Positions 3,430 through 64,000 of a DNA stretch of 64,000 bases are shown piece after piece. Source of the stretch: Anaerolineae bacterium. GTDB taxonomy: Bacteria; Chloroflexota; Anaerolineae; Promineifilales; Promineifilaceae. Under the pieces are notes generated by a model. That model worked only from the letters and a program-made list of their open reading frames with translations, had not been told where the DNA came from and did no database searches. Position numbers and translations under genes: made by a program. The stretch lies in the NCBI GenBank assembly GCA_019637635.1, contig JAHBVI010000005.1, positions 1-64,000 of the forward strand. The letters are read 5' to 3'. Each line of letters opens with the position of its first letter. The first letter of the stretch is position 1.

Positions 3430-3468
3430 GAGACCTGACAGGTTTTTGGAAACCTGTCAGGTCTGAAC
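3430..3468. repeat. Inverted repeat, CCTGACAGG family
   Basis: GACCTGACAGGTTTTTGG is followed directly by the complementary AAACCTGTCAGGTC. It lies between two minus-strand genes, 2-3 bases after the stop of the upstream PepSY-like gene, which suits a 3'-end hairpin or a REP-like element. Confidence 0.85.
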
Positions 3469-7605: not shown

Positions 7606-7640
7606 AGTCCTGACAGGTTTTTGAATACCTGTCAGGTCTT
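7606..7640. repeat. Inverted repeat, CCTGACAGG family
   Basis: TCCTGACAGGTTTTTGAATA is followed by CCTGTCAGGTCTT. It lies in the divergent promoter region between the TadE-type gene (minus) and the SARP regulator (plus), so this copy is not a simple terminator. Confidence 0.8.
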
Positions 7641-13818: not shown

Positions 13819-13869
13819 TTTGTAGTGAGCGCTTCAGCGCCGCCAGAAGGCGATAAGTGCCGGCTACAA
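13819..13869. repeat. REP-like hairpin element
   Basis: GTTTGTAG and CTACAAAC flank a region with the small hairpins GCGCTTCAGCGC and CGCCAGAAGGCG. The CTACAAA end is shared with the REP-like cluster at 27950-28095. Confidence 0.65.
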
Positions 13870-13951
13870 ACGATTATAAAGCTATTTCCCCAAAACAGCA
13901 GTTTGTTATACCATTGTGCCCAAAATCCCACAGAAAAACGGACGGAACGAT

Positions 13952-16018: not shown

Positions 16019-16127
16019 GGGGACGGCCGTAAACGATGTGTACATAAACACTATTGACACAGTGGGCGCCCATTGCCTAAACCCGTGACAACTTATTTAT
16101 CAGGTGAGACCATGCCTATTCACAAAG

Positions 16128-16192
16128 CGCCTTGCCGGGTGCCGGGTGATCAATCACCCGGCAAGCAGACGCCCCATGAATGGGGCTAAAGG
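16128..16192. repeat. REP-like double hairpin upstream of the RAYT gene
   Basis: The first hairpin is CTTGCCGGGTG....CACCCGGCAAG with an internal CCGGGTG duplication. The second is GCCCCATGAATGGGGC followed by TAAAGG. RAYT transposases are known to bind REP hairpins that flank their own gene. The ATGAAT/TAAAT-type loops resemble those at 27950-28095. Confidence 0.7.
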
Positions 16193-16229
16193 GCGGAAAA
16201 CCTGAATATGTATGGAACAGGAGGGAAAC

Positions 16230-16736
16230 ATGCCATATTATGAACTGTACTACCATCTTGTTTGGGCCACGAAGAACAGAGAACCACTATTGACCGCTGA
16301 GGTTGAACCTGTTATTTACCAATACATTCGTTACAAAGCCTATGACCTGGAGGCGATTATCCACGCCATGAATGGGACAGAAGATCATACACATGTGGTA
16401 GCCACCATCCCACCCAAACTGGCGGTAGCCAAATTTGTTGGCCAGGTGAAGGGGGTCGCTTCCACCAAATATAACCAGCGTTTTCCCGACAAGCCTGCCT
16501 TTTTCTGGCAGGCGGAATACGCTGCCTTTTCATTTGACAAAAAGCGATTGCCCTATGTGGTTGCTTACGTGGAACGGCAAAAGGAACATCATGCAGCCCG
16601 GACGTTGATTCCGATTTTGGAAAGGACAGAAGGAGAAGCGCAACGGCCGTTCGTCCGCGAATCGGCGACTCCTTACCTGCCCGATTATGATCAATGGTGG
16701 CGACAAATGATGGATGAGGAGGTAGATAGCCCCTAG
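16230..16736 (+). CDS. REP-associated tyrosine transposase (IS200/TnpA-like, RAYT)
   Basis: The 168-residue protein starts MPYYELYYHLVWATKNREPL, typical of the Y1 HUH transposase fold. The HUH pair is H53-T-H55 (EDHTHVVA) and the nucleophile is Tyr113 in VVAYVERQKEHH, with Gln117 on the same helix. It lacks a TnpB partner and IS ends, which fits the single-copy, domesticated RAYT group that moves or maintains REP hairpins. AGGAGGG precedes the ATG at 16230; an upstream in-frame ATG at 16212 is less likely. REP-like hairpins sit directly upstream. Confidence 0.85.
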   Translation: MPYYELYYHLVWATKNREPLLTAEVEPVIYQYIRYKAYDLEAIIHAMNGTEDHTHVVATIPPKLAVAKFVGQVKGVASTKYNQRFPDKPAFFWQAEYAAFSFDKKRLPYVVAYVERQKEHHAARTLIPILERTEGEAQRPFVRESATPYLPDYDQWWRQMMDEEVDSP

Positions 16737-26649: not shown

Positions 26650-26728
26650 GGGGAGACGGAGATTGGGAGATTGCGAGATTGAGAGACTGGTAAATTCCAA
26701 TCTCCTAATCTCTTAATCTCCCAATCTC
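26650..26728. repeat. Inverted array of GAGATTG units between LolA-like and MacB-like genes
   Basis: GGAGATTGGGAGATTGCGAG-type units (26657-26690) face CCAATCTCCTAATCTC and CTTAATCTCCCAATCTC (26697-26728). The array ends next to the TAA of the LolA-like gene and begins at the transporter start. Confidence 0.9.
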
Positions 26729-27888: not shown

Positions 27889-28715
27889 GGGTTCTCCTTT
27901 TTTAGTAACGCAAATTGCCAATAGGTTTGTTTCAAATGAGTTGAGCGTTTGCCCGAACCGCCCGATGATAAATCATCGGGCTACAAAACAACGCCCGGTA
28001 AACCGGGCTGAACCGGTCAGTCAGGCGCGTCAGCCGGATTTATCCGGCGTCAGTGACTGGCCTGGTCATTTATGACCGGGCCAGTCACTGTTCAACTGAA
28101 ATGAAACACACCCTTTGCCAAATTGCCAATTCCACCCCTCTAAACACCACCTTTATCCTTTTTGTGACAATTGTAGTGTGGGAAGTACGGCCGTGAACAA
28201 AATCTCATCCCGCTCCCATGCGCGGTCGCCTGGGAAGGCAATTCCCAGGCTGGCACAAGAAGTGCGCTTTAGCGCACTGGAAAAATGCGCCGCGCCAAAC
28301 AACCCGTTTTACAACGTCCTTTCAGGGCGTTTGTGCATCTCAGACGCCGGATTGCATCTGGTGGCCTGACGGCCGTGACAAGGTGTGCCCGGTACTGCCC
28401 CCAAAGCGGCCAGGTATGAACGAGACGGCCGTCCCCACCTCAACCAGGTCATTCCGAACCCCCCGCATGGGGGTGAGGAATCTTTCACCTGGCCAGGATG
28501 AAAGATTCCTCGCTCCGAAGACTACGCTCGGAATGACAGTTAGCAATCCCAAATGAGTCGTGGATTGAGGAGAGGCTTTAGCCGATGCGCGTTTCGCCTA
28601 AAGACTCTCCTTCGACTGTCCACATTTTCTGCTATATTAGCCCTGCCATCGTTGCCACGAGTCCGGCTGTTTTCCGTGAAAATCTGTTTTATCCGCCAAA
28701 TCCGTGGCCCCATTC
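27889..28715. repeat. Gene-free 0.8-kb region packed with REP-like hairpins and inverted repeats
   Basis: At 27952-28095 there are five successive hairpins: CCCGATGATAAATCATCGGG, GCCCGGTAAACCGGGC, GCCGGATTTATCCGGC, and CAGTGACTGGCC..GGCCAGTCACTG around GGTCATTTATGACC. At 28220-28280 there are GCCTGGGAAGGCAATTCCCAGGC and GTGCGCTTTAGCGCAC. At 28430-28545 a TCATTCCGA...CGGAATGACA inverted repeat is present, and at 28553-28640 a copy of a 90-bp dispersed repeat. I see no convincing coding sequence. Confidence 0.85.
28553..28640. repeat. Dispersed ~90-bp repeat, copy 1
   Basis: Key words in order: ATGAGTCGTGGATTGAGG, AGAGGCTTTAGCCGATG, TTCGCCTAAAGACTCTCC, CGACTGTCCACATTTTC. Copies 2 and 3 are at 39850-39935 and 50472-50562. 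Confidence 0.85.
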
Positions 28716-30365
28716 TTAAAATGTGCGGTGTTTGAAACGGCCGTCCACCAGCGTTGCGTCAATCGTTATGTCTAGTAATTCGTCAGGCGGGGTGGTGAAG
28801 GGGTCGGCGCTGTAAATGGTCAGGTCGGCCAGTTTACCCGGCGCAATGGCGCCCAGGCGGTCGGCCTGCCCGCTGGTGAGGGCGGCGGCGGTGGTGAAGG
28901 CGAAGATTGTTTCGTGCATGGTCAATTTTTGTTCGGGATACCAACCGTCGGGGCCGGGGGAACCGTCGGCGCGGCGGCGGCTGACGGCCGCATAAATACC
29001 CGGCAGGGGGTCAATCTTCTCTATCGGCGCGTCGGAGCCAAAGACGACTAATGCGCCGCTGTCCAGCATCGTCCGCCAGGCGTAGCTGTGGCGGGCACGG
29101 TCGCCCCAGTGTGTATCGGCCATTTCCATGTCCGAGGTGGCGTGGGTGGGCTGCATGGAGGCGATGATGCCCAACTGCGCCAGCCGGGGCTGGTCGGCGG
29201 GGTGGATGATTTGCACGTGTTCGATGCGGTGGCGGAGAAGAGGAGATTGGGAGATTGGAGATTGGGAGATTGAATCTCTTAATCTCCCAATCTCTAATCT
29301 CTTCTTCTCTTCAGCGCGGACGGCTTCGTACACATCGAGTACGTCGTGGTTGGCGCGGTCGCCGATGGCGTGGATGGTGACGCTGAGACCGGCGGCGCTG
29401 GCGGCGCTGACCTTTTCCATCATCTCTTCTTTGTCGGTGACAACGATGCCGGTGTTGGTGGGGTCGTTTTCGTAGGGTTGTAACATGGCGGCGGTGCGCG
29501 GGCCAAGCGCGCCGTCGGCAAAAATTTTGACGCTGCCGATGCACAGCCAGTCGTCGCCAAAACCGGAGCGCAGTCCGACGCCGATGGCGTGTTCCAGCCG
29601 GTAGACGGGCACGTTTTTGACGATGCGCAGCCCTAATTCCCCCTGTTCGCGCAACATTTGTAGGGCCAGGAAACAGTCACGGCCGTCAAAATCATGCAGT
29701 CCCGTCAACCCCACCTGCCAGCAATACTGCTGCGCCGACTGCATGGCCGCGGCAATCTGGGCCGGCGTCTCGCGGGGGATGTGCCGGGACACCAGTTCCA
29801 TGGCGTCTTCAAAGAGGATGCCGGTGGCCTGCCCGGTGGCGTCACGTTGAATCTGGCCGCCGGGTGGGTCGGGCGTGTGATCGTCAATACCGGCGATGCG
29901 CAGGGCACGGCCGTTCACCCAGGCGGCATGTCCCGATTTGTCACGCAAACAAACGGGGCGGTCGGGCACAATATGATCCAGGTCGGCGGCGGTGGGAAAT
30001 GCACGGGTAGGCCAGTCGTCTATGCGCCAGCCGCGGCCCTGGAGCCAGTGAGCGGTGAGCGGTGAGCGGTGAGCAGTGTGGATGCGGGAGAGGGCGTCGT
30101 CGAGGGAGGTGGCGCCGTCCAGGTTGACGAGTTGCAGCCCAAGGGCGAAATGTTGGAAGTGGACATGGGCGTCTACCAGGCCGGGGGTGAGGGCACGGCC
30201 GTCTAAATCCACCCATTCGCCGCCAGTCCCTAATAAGGCGCGCATGGCGTCATCGCTGCCGACGGCCAGGATGTGGTTATGGCGAATGGCGACGGCCGTT
30301 GCCTGGGGCTGCCGGGGGTTCATGGTGTGGATACGGCCGTTGCTGAGGACAAGAGTTGCGGACAT
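28716..30365 (-). CDS. YtcJ-like amidohydrolase
   Basis: The 549-residue protein starts VLSNGRIHTMNPRQPQATAVAI. It has the metal HxH in GLVDAHVHFQHFALG, a YtcJ-type insert (CLRDKSGHAAWVNGRAL), later metal His residues in VTIHAIGDRANHDVLD and RIEHVQIIHP, and the final Asp in VFGSDAPIEKIDPLPGIYAAV. The family hydrolyses amides or imides; the substrate is unknown. Two in-frame stretches come from repeats: SPLTAHRSPLTAH (about residues 98-110) and RLRDSISQSPISQSP (about 365-380). AGGAG precedes the ATG. Confidence 0.88.
   Translation of the reverse strand: MSATLVLSNGRIHTMNPRQPQATAVAIRHNHILAVGSDDAMRALLGTGGEWVDLDGRALTPGLVDAHVHFQHFALGLQLVNLDGATSLDDALSRIHTAHRSPLTAHWLQGRGWRIDDWPTRAFPTAADLDHIVPDRPVCLRDKSGHAAWVNGRALRIAGIDDHTPDPPGGQIQRDATGQATGILFEDAMELVSRHIPRETPAQIAAAMQSAQQYCWQVGLTGLHDFDGRDCFLALQMLREQGELGLRIVKNVPVYRLEHAIGVGLRSGFGDDWLCIGSVKIFADGALGPRTAAMLQPYENDPTNTGIVVTDKEEMMEKVSAASAAGLSVTIHAIGDRANHDVLDVYEAVRAEEKKRLEIGRLRDSISQSPISQSPLLRHRIEHVQIIHPADQPRLAQLGIIASMQPTHATSDMEMADTHWGDRARHSYAWRTMLDSGALVVFGSDAPIEKIDPLPGIYAAVSRRRADGSPGPDGWYPEQKLTMHETIFAFTTAAALTSGQADRLGAIAPGKLADLTIYSADPFTTPPDELLDITIDATLVDGRFKHRTF
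29236..29305. repeat. In-frame inverted GAGATTG array inside the amidohydrolase gene
   Basis: GAGATTGGGAGATTGGAGATTGG-type units are followed by AATCTCTTAATCTCCCAATC units. The same words form the intergenic arrays at 26650, 51236, 55150, 56089 and 63495. A second in-frame array of GGTGAGC units is at 30048-30080. Confidence 0.9.
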
Positions 30366-33105: not shown

Positions 33106-33339
33106 CGAAGCTCCTGTGTTTCGCGGTTCACGTTCAGATTTGATGATAGATTCTCCAGACATAAAAAATACCTCATGCAGTGTGTAACGCCAACGGCCGT
33201 AACCCGTTGCGTTTGTTTATCAATACCTCATGTTCAATTGTCCGTTAAATCTGGAAGCGGCTCCTACACACGGCAGCATTATAAAGCAAAGGCAGCGCCA
33301 GCGGCGGCCCATTCATAAATTTCTCAAAATGGCAAAAGA

Positions 33340-33372
33340 CCTGACAGGTTTGGAAAACCTGTCAGGTCTAAA
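33340..33372. repeat. Inverted repeat, CCTGACAGG family
   Basis: GACCTGACAGGTTTGG followed by AAAACCTGTCAGGTC, 6 bases after the stop of the flavin reductase gene (minus strand). Placement suits a 3'-end hairpin. Confidence 0.85.
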
Positions 33373-47854: not shown

Positions 47855-47856
47855 CA

Positions 47857-47892
47857 GACATGACAGGTTTTCAGAAACCTGTCATGTCTTGA
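47857..47892. repeat. Inverted repeat, CCTGACAGG family variant
   Basis: AGACATGACAGGTTTTCAG and AAACCTGTCATGTCTTG. Both arms carry the same change (CATGACAGG), which keeps pairing, so the hairpin rather than the sequence seems to be conserved. It lies between the cytochrome cd1 gene and the NarX-like gene. Confidence 0.85.
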
Positions 47893-51235: not shown

Positions 51236-51302
51236 AGAGACTGGAGATTGGAGATTAGAGATTGCCCAATCTCTAATCTCTAATCTCCAATTTCCAATTT
51301 CT
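51236..51302. repeat. Inverted GAGATTG array
   Basis: GGAGATTGGAGATTAGAGA, then CCAATCTCTAATCTCTAATC and CCAATTTCCAATTTC. It lies between the DUF3467 and translin-like genes on the minus strand. Confidence 0.9.
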
Positions 51303-55147: not shown

Positions 55148-55212
55148 GGGATTGGAGATTGAGAGATCAGGAGATTGCCCAATCTCCTGATCTCTCAATC
55201 TCCTAATCTCTT
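55148..55212. repeat. Inverted GAGATTG array at the sigma gene 3' end
   Basis: ATTGGAGATTGAGAGATCAG, then CCCAATCTCCTGATCTCTC and AATCTCCTAATCTC. The right arm encodes KRLGD and the TGA stop of the ECF41 gene. Confidence 0.93.
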
Positions 55213-56084: not shown

Positions 56085-56165
56085 ATAGAGATCGGAGATT
56101 AGAGATTGGAGATTAGAGATTGGAGATTGCCCCCATCTCTAATTCTCCCATCTCCAATCTCTCTT
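56085..56165. repeat. Inverted GAGATTG array at the FAD oxidoreductase 3' end
   Basis: ATCGGAGATTAGAGATTGGA and continuing units, then CCCCATCTCTAATTCTCCCA and TCTCCAATCTCTCTTC. It encodes the last 18 residues and the TAA of the oxidoreductase. Confidence 0.93.
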
Positions 56166-57450
56166 CTAACGCCAATTCCGCCGCCTGTTTGCCGCTGCTC
56201 AGGGCGGCATCGGCCAGCCAGCCTTGCGGGCCAACCCAGTCACCGGCCAGGTAGAGGCGCTGGCTGTGGGGTAGGGCATATCCGGGACGGCCGTGCAGTC
56301 CCCCATTTTCTGCCCGCGCCAGATCGTTCACCACCGTCATGTGTGGCAAAAAGCGGCGTGCGAGCAGTTCGGCGCGCCAGCCCGGCTGCACCAGGTCGAG
56401 CATGGCTTCCAGTTCGGCTTCATCCTGGGCGGCATCCGCAGCGCCGGGGGTCAGGTATTTGGCCACGTGGATGACGCTGCCGCCGTCCGGCCCAAAACGG
56501 GCCACGGCCGAATGGTTGGAAAAGTACAGCGGCTGATCCAACCCCAAGACGTAGCGCCGGTCGGGATGGGGAACGCGGCGTAAAACCACATCTAAACAGG
56601 CGGCCCGGACGGGCACGGCCGTAGCCGCCCACTGCCGCAGTTGGGTATGTTCCGGCAATAGCTGGCTGGCGGTTTGGGGATCAACGGCCAGGATGACGGC
56701 CGTTGCCTGAATGGTTTGCCCGTCGGCCAGGAAGATGGTGGCGTGGCCGGGATGCTCATGCACAGACATGACCCGCGCCCCGGTGTGAATGGTGACACCG
56801 GCCGTTTCCGCGGCGGCGCGCAGCCCATCCACCAGTGTTTGCCAGCCGCCGTCCAGGTAGCGCACATTGTGGCGATAAGCCAGTTGGAACTGGTGCAGGA
56901 AGATGTCGGCGCTGGAGATTTCTGGCGCATTGGCGTAGGTAGATGTGCGCGCCAGCAGGTGCAGGAAATGGCGCAGCGGCATGGATGGGGTTTGTCCGTT
57001 GATCCAATCGGCCAGGGAGATGCCGGCGACGGATTCCGGGGACGTTTGGCTAATGCGCCACAGCAGGCGCATCATGGCTGCTTTTTCGGCCAGCGTCAGC
57101 CAGTTGGTGGCTAACAAATCCTGGGGTGCGCCGGGCATGGGCACGAGGTGGTTCTGGTACACGGCCGTGCCGCGCAAGTTTGGTTTGTGCCCCGTCCAGG
57201 CGACGCCCAATTCGGCCAGGATGTCCGACGCGCCGCCGCCGATGTACAGGGCATGTGGCCCCAGGTTCAGGGTAAAATCGCCGCGCTGCTGGCTGATGGC
57301 CCGGCCACCGATGAGCCGCGCTTTTTCTAGCAGCAGCACGCTTTTCCCGGCGCGGGCCAGGGTGGCCGCGGCCGTTAAACCGGCCAGGCCACCGCCGATA
57401 ACGGCCGTATGCACAGCCGTATGTACAGTGGTAGTTGTCAATTGGTTCAT
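56113..57450 (-). CDS. FAD-dependent oxidoreductase (phytoene desaturase/amine oxidase-like)
   Basis: The 445-residue protein starts with a dinucleotide-binding loop (AVIGGGLAGLTAAATLARAGKSVLLLEK) and GGRAISQQRGDFTLNLGPHALY, as in phytoene desaturase-like enzymes. The C-terminal FAD contact is LYLAGDWVGPQGWLADAALSSGKQAAE. Ahead of the loop, THTAVHTAV comes from ACGGCCGTATG-type words. The last 18 residues (LEERLEMGELEMGAISNL) are encoded by a repeat array and are probably not part of the fold. It lies directly upstream of the ECF41 gene and is its likely partner or target. AGGAGA precedes the ATG. Confidence 0.85.
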   Translation of the reverse strand: MNQLTTTTVHTAVHTAVIGGGLAGLTAAATLARAGKSVLLLEKARLIGGRAISQQRGDFTLNLGPHALYIGGGASDILAELGVAWTGHKPNLRGTAVYQNHLVPMPGAPQDLLATNWLTLAEKAAMMRLLWRISQTSPESVAGISLADWINGQTPSMPLRHFLHLLARTSTYANAPEISSADIFLHQFQLAYRHNVRYLDGGWQTLVDGLRAAAETAGVTIHTGARVMSVHEHPGHATIFLADGQTIQATAVILAVDPQTASQLLPEHTQLRQWAATAVPVRAACLDVVLRRVPHPDRRYVLGLDQPLYFSNHSAVARFGPDGGSVIHVAKYLTPGAADAAQDEAELEAMLDLVQPGWRAELLARRFLPHMTVVNDLARAENGGLHGRPGYALPHSQRLYLAGDWVGPQGWLADAALSSGKQAAELALEERLEMGELEMGAISNL

Positions 57451-60311: not shown

Positions 60312-60378
60312 CAGACCTGACAGGTTTTTCACCAGTTCAACCTGGAACTTCGCAGGTCAAAAACCTGTCAGGTCTCCA
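60312..60378. repeat. Inverted repeat, CCTGACAGG family, long-spaced copy
   Basis: AGACCTGACAGGTTTTT at 60312 and AAAAACCTGTCAGGTCT at 60358, with a 28-base AGTTCAACCTGGAACTT-like middle that forms its own hairpin. Confidence 0.85.
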
Positions 60379-61239: not shown

Positions 61240-61276
61240 TACAGACCTGACAGGTCTGCCAGACCTGTCAGGTCTT
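61240..61276. repeat. Inverted repeat, CCTGACAGG family
   Basis: AGACCTGACAGGTCTGCC and AGACCTGTCAGGTCTTTT, located 4 bases after the stop of the aminotransferase gene (minus strand). Confidence 0.9.

Positions 61277-63494: not shown

Positions 63495-64000
<506 letters not shown>

Follow-up and report, generated by a model that had tools for sequence, protein, structure and literature searches.

The window, by which we mean the whole 64,000 nucleotide stretch of DNA analysed (part of contig C245 of an assembly of 7.49 Mb in 299 contigs), carries a gene for a Y1 transposase whose motifs assign it to subclass 1.2 of TnpA_Y1 and, immediately upstream, a repeat composed of two hairpins. It is probable, in our judgement, that the two belong to a REPtron-like system that combines a class 1 enzyme with a repeat of two hairpins, in which the module next to the gene would be the substrate of the enzyme. 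The same module is found beside subclass 1.2 genes in Chloroflexota and Cyanobacteria. The nearest named relatives of the genome belong to the Anaerolineae, and one of these bears the label Promineifilum.

The Y1 transposase of the window

The tnpA_Y1 gene (16230..16736, forward strand) encodes a 168 amino acid protein and was annotated from Pfam, NCBIfam, an alignment of 19 homologues and an AlphaFold2 model compared by Foldseek. The enclosing ORF spans 16212-16736 (stop codon 16734-16736), and 16230 is the likely translation start, because a GGAGGG is present at 16220-16225 and the homologues begin at this position. The ORF matches Y1_Tnp (Pfam PF01797) at 1.8e-28 and the protein matches the NCBIfam IS200/IS605 transposase at 4.9e-24. 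The catalytic histidine pair is H53 and H55 (16386-16394) and the catalytic tyrosine Y113 (16566-16568); the layout of the protein is DHTH at residues 52-55, W93-Q94, Y113---Q117--H120-H121 and then a C-terminal tail. For the AlphaFold2 model (pLDDT 85.6) the top PDB structure matches are the TnpA proteins of IS608 and ISDra2 (Foldseek to 2vjv 1.8e-9), and the RAYT structure 4er8 appears only at rank 30. With two histidines, the tyrosine and a predicted HUH fold, the protein would qualify as an HUH Y1 single-strand nuclease. The initial annotation described an intact HUH pair and Tyr; H53, H55 and Y113 of this Y1_Tnp ORF are indeed intact, but the "U" residue is a threonine (DHTH), where relatives have V, L, I or A and none Thr. 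Since this position is otherwise hydrophobic, the window copy may be weakened.

The pN/pS of 0.27 against the best homologue (68% identical, synonymous sites saturated) indicates purifying selection on tnpA. The GC content is 0.50 for the gene and 0.57 for the window. The only paralogue in the genome is a second subclass 1.2 gene (L002, C90:42575-42970), which is 42% identical, and these two copies conform to the low copy number with a divergent paralogue that is a trait of subclass 1.2. The same gene is present downstream of L002 and of L035 (G004 C79), which are from two species of the genus; an upstream hairpin array, AGTCGGCgcagGCCGACT, is also common to these two loci and differs from the hairpins of the window gene. 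No TnpB-like ORF was recognised by eye among the ORFs neighbouring the window tnpA. In plasmid and phage collections only distant IS200/IS605-type matches to TnpA were found, with approximately 26-35% identity among the matches listed.

In the classification of TnpA_Y1 proteins by Quentin et al. (2018, PMC6006769), class 2 (RAYT/TnpA_REP) has the motif Y---NP and the signature of subclass 1.2 is DH[IV]H, WQ and Y---Q--HH. Subclass 1.2 is there described as lacking REPs and, in general, terminal structures of the IS200 type, and as mostly restricted to Cyanobacteria and Bacteroidetes (PMC6006769). The window protein has FWQ and YVERQKEHH, which match the signature and place it, by sequence, in subclass 1.2; WQ and Y---Q--HH are present, and the remaining motif is DHTH here versus DHVH, DHIH, DHLH or DHAH in most relatives. 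The Y, the Q and the HH are invariant in 19/19 aligned homologues and in 80/80 loci fetched from public genomes. The gene had initially been called a RAYT, which is the wrong family: the protein is of class 1, subclass 1.2 (Y---Q--HH, WQ), and a class 2 RAYT/TnpA_REP identity is contradicted by a Y motif that reads YVERQKEHH and not Y---NP. Likewise, the identity of a subclass 1.1 IS200 was rejected, as the HH is present and the genome contains no near-identical copy. The class 2 genes of the same genome are on contigs C237, C58 and C227.

The bipartite hairpin module

The interval that separates the upstream gene from the tnpA ORF contains two perfect hairpins, at 16140-16163 (11-bp stem) and at 16171-16186 (7-bp stem), which confirms the earlier remark that two hairpins adjoin the gene. 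They form the gene-side module (16141..16186, forward strand), which is composed of the outer hairpin GCCGGGTGATcaATCACCCGGC (16141-16162), a shortened linker and the inner hairpin GCCCCATgaATGGGGC (16171-16186), and which ends 44 nt before the likely ATG. In the general design of the module, a linker of 10-12 nt (about 11), which starts with TA, joins an outer hairpin some 22 nt long to an inner one of some 16 nt. The two hairpins have the same orientation, and TNAA is the usual loop of each when read on the same strand. The stems vary freely and compensating changes are seen, a covariation count which carries no independent weight as perfect hairpins were chosen for the alignment. Unpaired positions are also kept in both phyla, namely the T after the inner hairpin (96/98 modules) and CC before the outer hairpin, and these positions were not used in any module selection step.

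An exact-pattern search for the short hairpin of the gene-side module gave only 3 matches. Because the repeats keep structure and not sequence, a covariance model was needed, and this model, R1, was trained on 36 modules, none of them from the window. It matches the gene-side module with 43.1 bits (E 1.7e-10). About 41 modules are present in the assembly at E <= 0.01, and with this number in 7.49 Mb the chance of a module within 300 nt of a given gene is p ~0.003. No downstream partner module was found by R1 at the window gene, which has the upstream module only.

Similar hairpins had been indicated at 27952-28280, and R1 detects three modules there, at 27960-28277. These are GCCCGATGATaaATCATCGGGC-TACAAAACAAC-GCCCGGTaaACCGGGC on the forward strand (27960..28008, 61.4 bits, E 1.1e-15), its inverted partner at a distance of 24 nt on the reverse strand (28033..28081, 45.2 bits, E 4.5e-11), and, on the forward strand, a module that represents a second family of this genome, with outer hairpin GCCTGGGAA.. 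and inner hairpin AGTGCGCT.. (28228..28277, 36.1 bits, E 1.6e-8), copies related to which are found on C22, C13, C232 and C244.

The hairpin adjoining the window gene has no GTAG foot, and the opposite-strand foot of related modules is [G/T/A]TA(G), with a variable first base. The automatic REP search of Quentin et al. (PMC6006769) required GTAG or GTGG 0-2 nt 5' of the hairpin, a requirement that would miss most of the modules found here. No Rfam family matched the modules at gathering score, the only matches being sub-threshold ones to microRNA precursors, and the literature searched contained no paper on this double-hairpin repeat in these taxa.

Modules beside subclass 1.2 genes

Within 300 nt of subclass 1.2 genes tight hairpins occur at 6.8/kb, versus 1.05/kb in shuffles of the same flanks. 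As background, the same loci have 1.18 hairpins/kb at more than 600 nt from the gene, and for distal DNA that is non-coding the density is 2.7-3.0/kb; the excess around the genes decays over about 400 nt. R1 gives a match at 73 or more of the 80 subclass 1.2 loci that were fetched, some two dozen of which supplied training modules for the model, and at none of 36 other or unassigned Y1_Tnp loci in related Chloroflexota genomes, most of these recognisable as subclass 1.1 or class 2. For seven cyanobacterial genomes, most of them module-rich, 30 loci were fetched in a separate search, and the module was present at all six subclass 1.2 loci and at one of the 24 other Y1 loci. It was absent from subclass 1.1 loci and from the class 2 genes of the window genome and of related genomes. 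Because the control Y1 loci of Cyanobacteria and Chloroflexota are nearly all without the module, its association is specific to subclass 1.2 and is not a by-product of module-rich genomes.

Modules are found both upstream and downstream of subclass 1.2 genes and in both orientations. When tnpA was tested for a position in the middle of a module pair, the nearest upstream module was in plus orientation in 16 versus 12 cases and the nearest downstream module in minus orientation in 22 versus 12, which is not significant (p = 0.12).

The frequency of the module at these loci contradicts the published "no REPs" for subclass 1.2; the membership of the window protein rests on the protein and stays. 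As the pairing of module and gene recurs across two phyla, it is likely that this group of enzymes does have repeats as partners. At one locus (L187, G085 C1:1719223) the subclass 1.2 gene lies in a tandem GCGTCCC(A/G)TAGGGACGC hairpin array and not among R1 modules, of which the same genome has at least 60 elsewhere; this array is a possible second repeat type for subclass 1.2.

Dispersal of the modules

At least 8 of the module sites in the assembly are convergent pairs 14-24 nt apart. In the window, the inverted pair described above is enclosed in an element delimited by copy comparison (27924..28119) with the terminal inverted repeats (TIRs) GTTTGTTTCA.. / ..TGAAACACACCC. Comparison of this element with C275:20305-20504 gives 95% identity across 200 nt, while the flanks of the two are unrelated; among further copies, on C79, C99 and C221, the identity is 90-98% over 233-266 nt. 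The same-genome copies are bounded by the TIRs GTGTGTTTCA..TGAAACACAC and CATTGnTTACAAGTTAAG, where homology ends. The repeat is thus short, non-coding and dispersed in sharp-ended copies, and because the units end in TIRs it is MITE-like. Across the family the GTGTGTTTCA TIR is frequent, and it often stands there with no module. A sequence upstream of the window gene, GTGACAACTTAT near 16086, is similar to the TIR of the C36 copy and was considered as a degenerate TIR; it was rejected as the motif scan did not single it out.

TIR-bounded units with different TIRs are also present in the genomes G085, G394 and G391, those of G085 being elements of about 255 nt with an imperfect TIR of about 30 bp. 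In some G085 copies (L255-L260) the bases immediately flanking the TIR on one side are inverted on the other (CGACT..AGTCG), which looks as if the element had entered the loop of a palindrome. The cyanobacterial genome G393 (Microseira wollei record) has at least 150 modules, and its dispersed units are bare module pairs of about 125 nt with unrelated flanks, at which homology stops; no TIR was seen around these pairs.

The gene-side module of the window has dispersed counterparts in its own genome, which match it at 79-84% identity over 50-70 nt (80% over 70 nt for C256, 79% for C36). Such a recurrence of the gene-side stems in dispersed same-genome copies is seen in the window genome, in G023 (by inspection) and more weakly, at module level, in G037. 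No such resemblance to the surroundings of the genome's own tnpA is seen for the dispersed modules of G085 and G069.

Presence of modules and enzyme in related genomes

The earlier suggestion that the repeats might occur only in genomes with the enzyme fails in this strict form and holds in a looser one. Among 98 related genomes, modules are present in 33 of the 35 with a subclass 1.2 gene and also in 39 of the 63 without it, including G027 (92% complete), in which at least 61 modules were counted but no Y1_Tnp gene was detected. The median module count is 10 in genomes with the gene versus 1 in those without (p = 2.6e-4 in a rank test that ignores phylogeny); counts above about 60 or 150 are lower bounds. 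In G012 (L291, C25:187000-189500, at about 1220-1480) tnpA has an in-frame deletion of the HUH region and modules are retained downstream. Because modules persist beside this deleted gene, the repeats can outlast the enzyme, and absence of the gene where modules are present does not refute an enzymatic origin.

Other repeats in the window

The hairpin at 13819 had been grouped with those next to the gene, and it is of a different type. The site (13819-13870) is a hairpin pair bounded by GTAG...CTAC, for which the genome yields 5 matches when up to 3 mismatches are allowed; it is not matched by R1 and resembles the double-foot REPs that are described for class 2 enzymes. Long foldbacks consist of (GAGATTGG)n-like tandem units which meet their own reverse complement (26659-26728, 29240-29312, 51236-51302, 55154-55203, 56096-56167 and 63500-63565), and R1 gave no match to them. 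A hairpin family AGACCTGACAGGTTT..AAACCTGTCAGGTCT, with 15 half-site matches versus 0.09 expected, is found at 3431-3464, 7606-7639, 33337-33369, 47856-47889, 60313-60375 and 61243-61275, likewise with no match by R1. The palindrome ACGGCCGT has 144 occurrences versus 1.4 expected over the whole window, inside and outside genes, and is similar to the HIP1 octamer of Cyanobacteria. The tandem foldbacks make the window look rich in palindromes, and the tie to the enzyme does not extend to them. The proposal that the enzyme is tied to hairpins is thereby narrowed: it stands for one bipartite module, across phyla, and falls for the 13819 site and the tandem foldbacks.

Relationship to known systems

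The window protein shares with the published members of subclass 1.2 (PMC6006769) the DH-x-H, WQ and Y---Q--HH motifs, the short C-terminal tail, the low copy number and the occurrence of the group in Cyanobacteria. The paper gives "REP: no", whereas most members here, from Chloroflexota and Cyanobacteria, lie among the two-hairpin repeat. The REPtrons (RAYT, REPs and REPINs of E. coli, Pseudomonas and Stenotrophomonas) have the same arrangement of a single Y1 gene flanked by dispersed hairpins, often in inverted pairs; here, in contrast, the enzyme is of class 1 and the unit is two tandem TNAA-looped hairpins with a TA linker instead of one GTAG-tagged hairpin. The IS200/IS605 elements IS608 and ISDra2 share the fold, the catalytic residues and the same-orientation end hairpins recognised as single-stranded DNA, and differ in that the hairpins here are about 11 nt apart and repeat without the gene, which is not a multi-copy IS. 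GTAG-15 of Anabaena variabilis is described as GTAG dimers within palindromes (Di Nocera 2013, PMC3733652). Like the repeats studied here these are hairpin dimers inside longer inverted repeats; they differ in that the description concerns single-hairpin GTAG REPs with loops of 9-15 nt.

The main rival reading is that the modules are passengers in TIR-bounded MITEs of an unrelated DDE transposase, with TnpA binding or trimming them or merely sitting among them. The end of homology at the TIRs in the window genome, and the bounding of the copied unit by TIRs there and in other genomes, suggest a DDE-type transposase, as do the 255-nt elements of G085 with their long imperfect TIR; TIR sequence that is often free of the module across the family and modules in genomes without the gene agree with this as well. 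However, several unrelated TIR families enclose the same module design, the units of G393 have no TIR, and such hitch-hiking would leave unexplained why modules cluster at subclass 1.2 genes and not at other Y1 genes, so that we consider it unlikely. The hairpins, short, GC-rich and intergenic as they are, could also be transcription terminators or RNA-processing sites that lie near the gene by chance. This is very improbable, since the two-hairpin spacing, the loop sequence and the flanking T are kept over two phyla, modules are on both sides of the genes in both orientations and no Rfam family covers them at gathering score.

Two further explanations concern the enzyme. That the gene belongs to an ordinary IS200-type IS of subclass 1.1, whose left and right ends would be the hairpins, is in keeping with the NCBIfam name and with IS200/IS605 transposases as the closest solved relatives. 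We give it very little credence, as the genome has one copy of the sequence and one divergent paralogue (42%), by eye no TnpB-like ORF was recognised nearby, some 40 places have the hairpins but not the gene, and subclass 1.1 loci are without the module. A canonical class 2 RAYT (TnpA_REP) with GTAG REPs can hardly be the answer: the single-copy style of the gene beside hairpins and a GTAG preceding the outer hairpin of the 27960 module on the opposite strand are reminiscent of it, but the motif is YVERQKEHH and not Y---NP, the nearest folds are the TnpA of IS608 and ISDra2 with 4er8 at rank 30, true class 2 genes of the window genome and its relatives lack the module, and the foot reads TA(G) after a first base that varies.

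A REPtron-like partnership of a class 1 enzyme with the two-hairpin repeat is the reading we prefer. IS200/IS605 enzymes such as those of IS608 and ISDra2 act as dimers, each subunit of which binds one end hairpin of single-stranded DNA. Cutting by these enzymes is guided by short sequences 5' of the hairpins, and a T of the loop is recognised (PMC8266576). As two hairpins on the same strand 11 nt apart look like a joined pair of such ends, we propose that one TnpA dimer acts per module. The module would become single-stranded, for example on the lagging-strand template, and one dimer would grip its outer and inner hairpins as an IS200/IS605 enzyme grips left and right ends. Y113 would then cut near the feet of the hairpins and rejoin the ends, and modules or inverted module pairs could be excised, circularised or copied elsewhere. 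The analysis establishes the subclass, the module, its specific placement by subclass 1.2 genes in two phyla and the dispersal of module pairs to unrelated sites, and from the analogy we infer that TnpA would bind and cut the modules, choose the strand and move them. TIR transposases and TnpA may both act on the repeats.

In its most specific form the proposal is that subclass 1.2 TnpA has a cognate class of TNAA-looped double hairpins, each a minimal left-end/right-end pair for one dimer, that number hundreds in Cyanobacteria and dozens in Chloroflexota, and we see the arguments for and against this form as evenly balanced. If true, it would be a third enzyme-repeat partnership beside the IS200 ends and the class 2 REPtrons. 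Subclass 1.2 has been described so far as an orphan group, transposase-like, low in copy number, and with no IS ends, no REPs and no role; with a repeat partner specific to it, its function becomes open to testing. Such a partnership would also offer a likely source for the small hairpin repeats that number hundreds in genomes of Cyanobacteria and Chloroflexota, and it suggests that Y1 transposases have undergone REP-type domestication in class 1 as well as in class 2.
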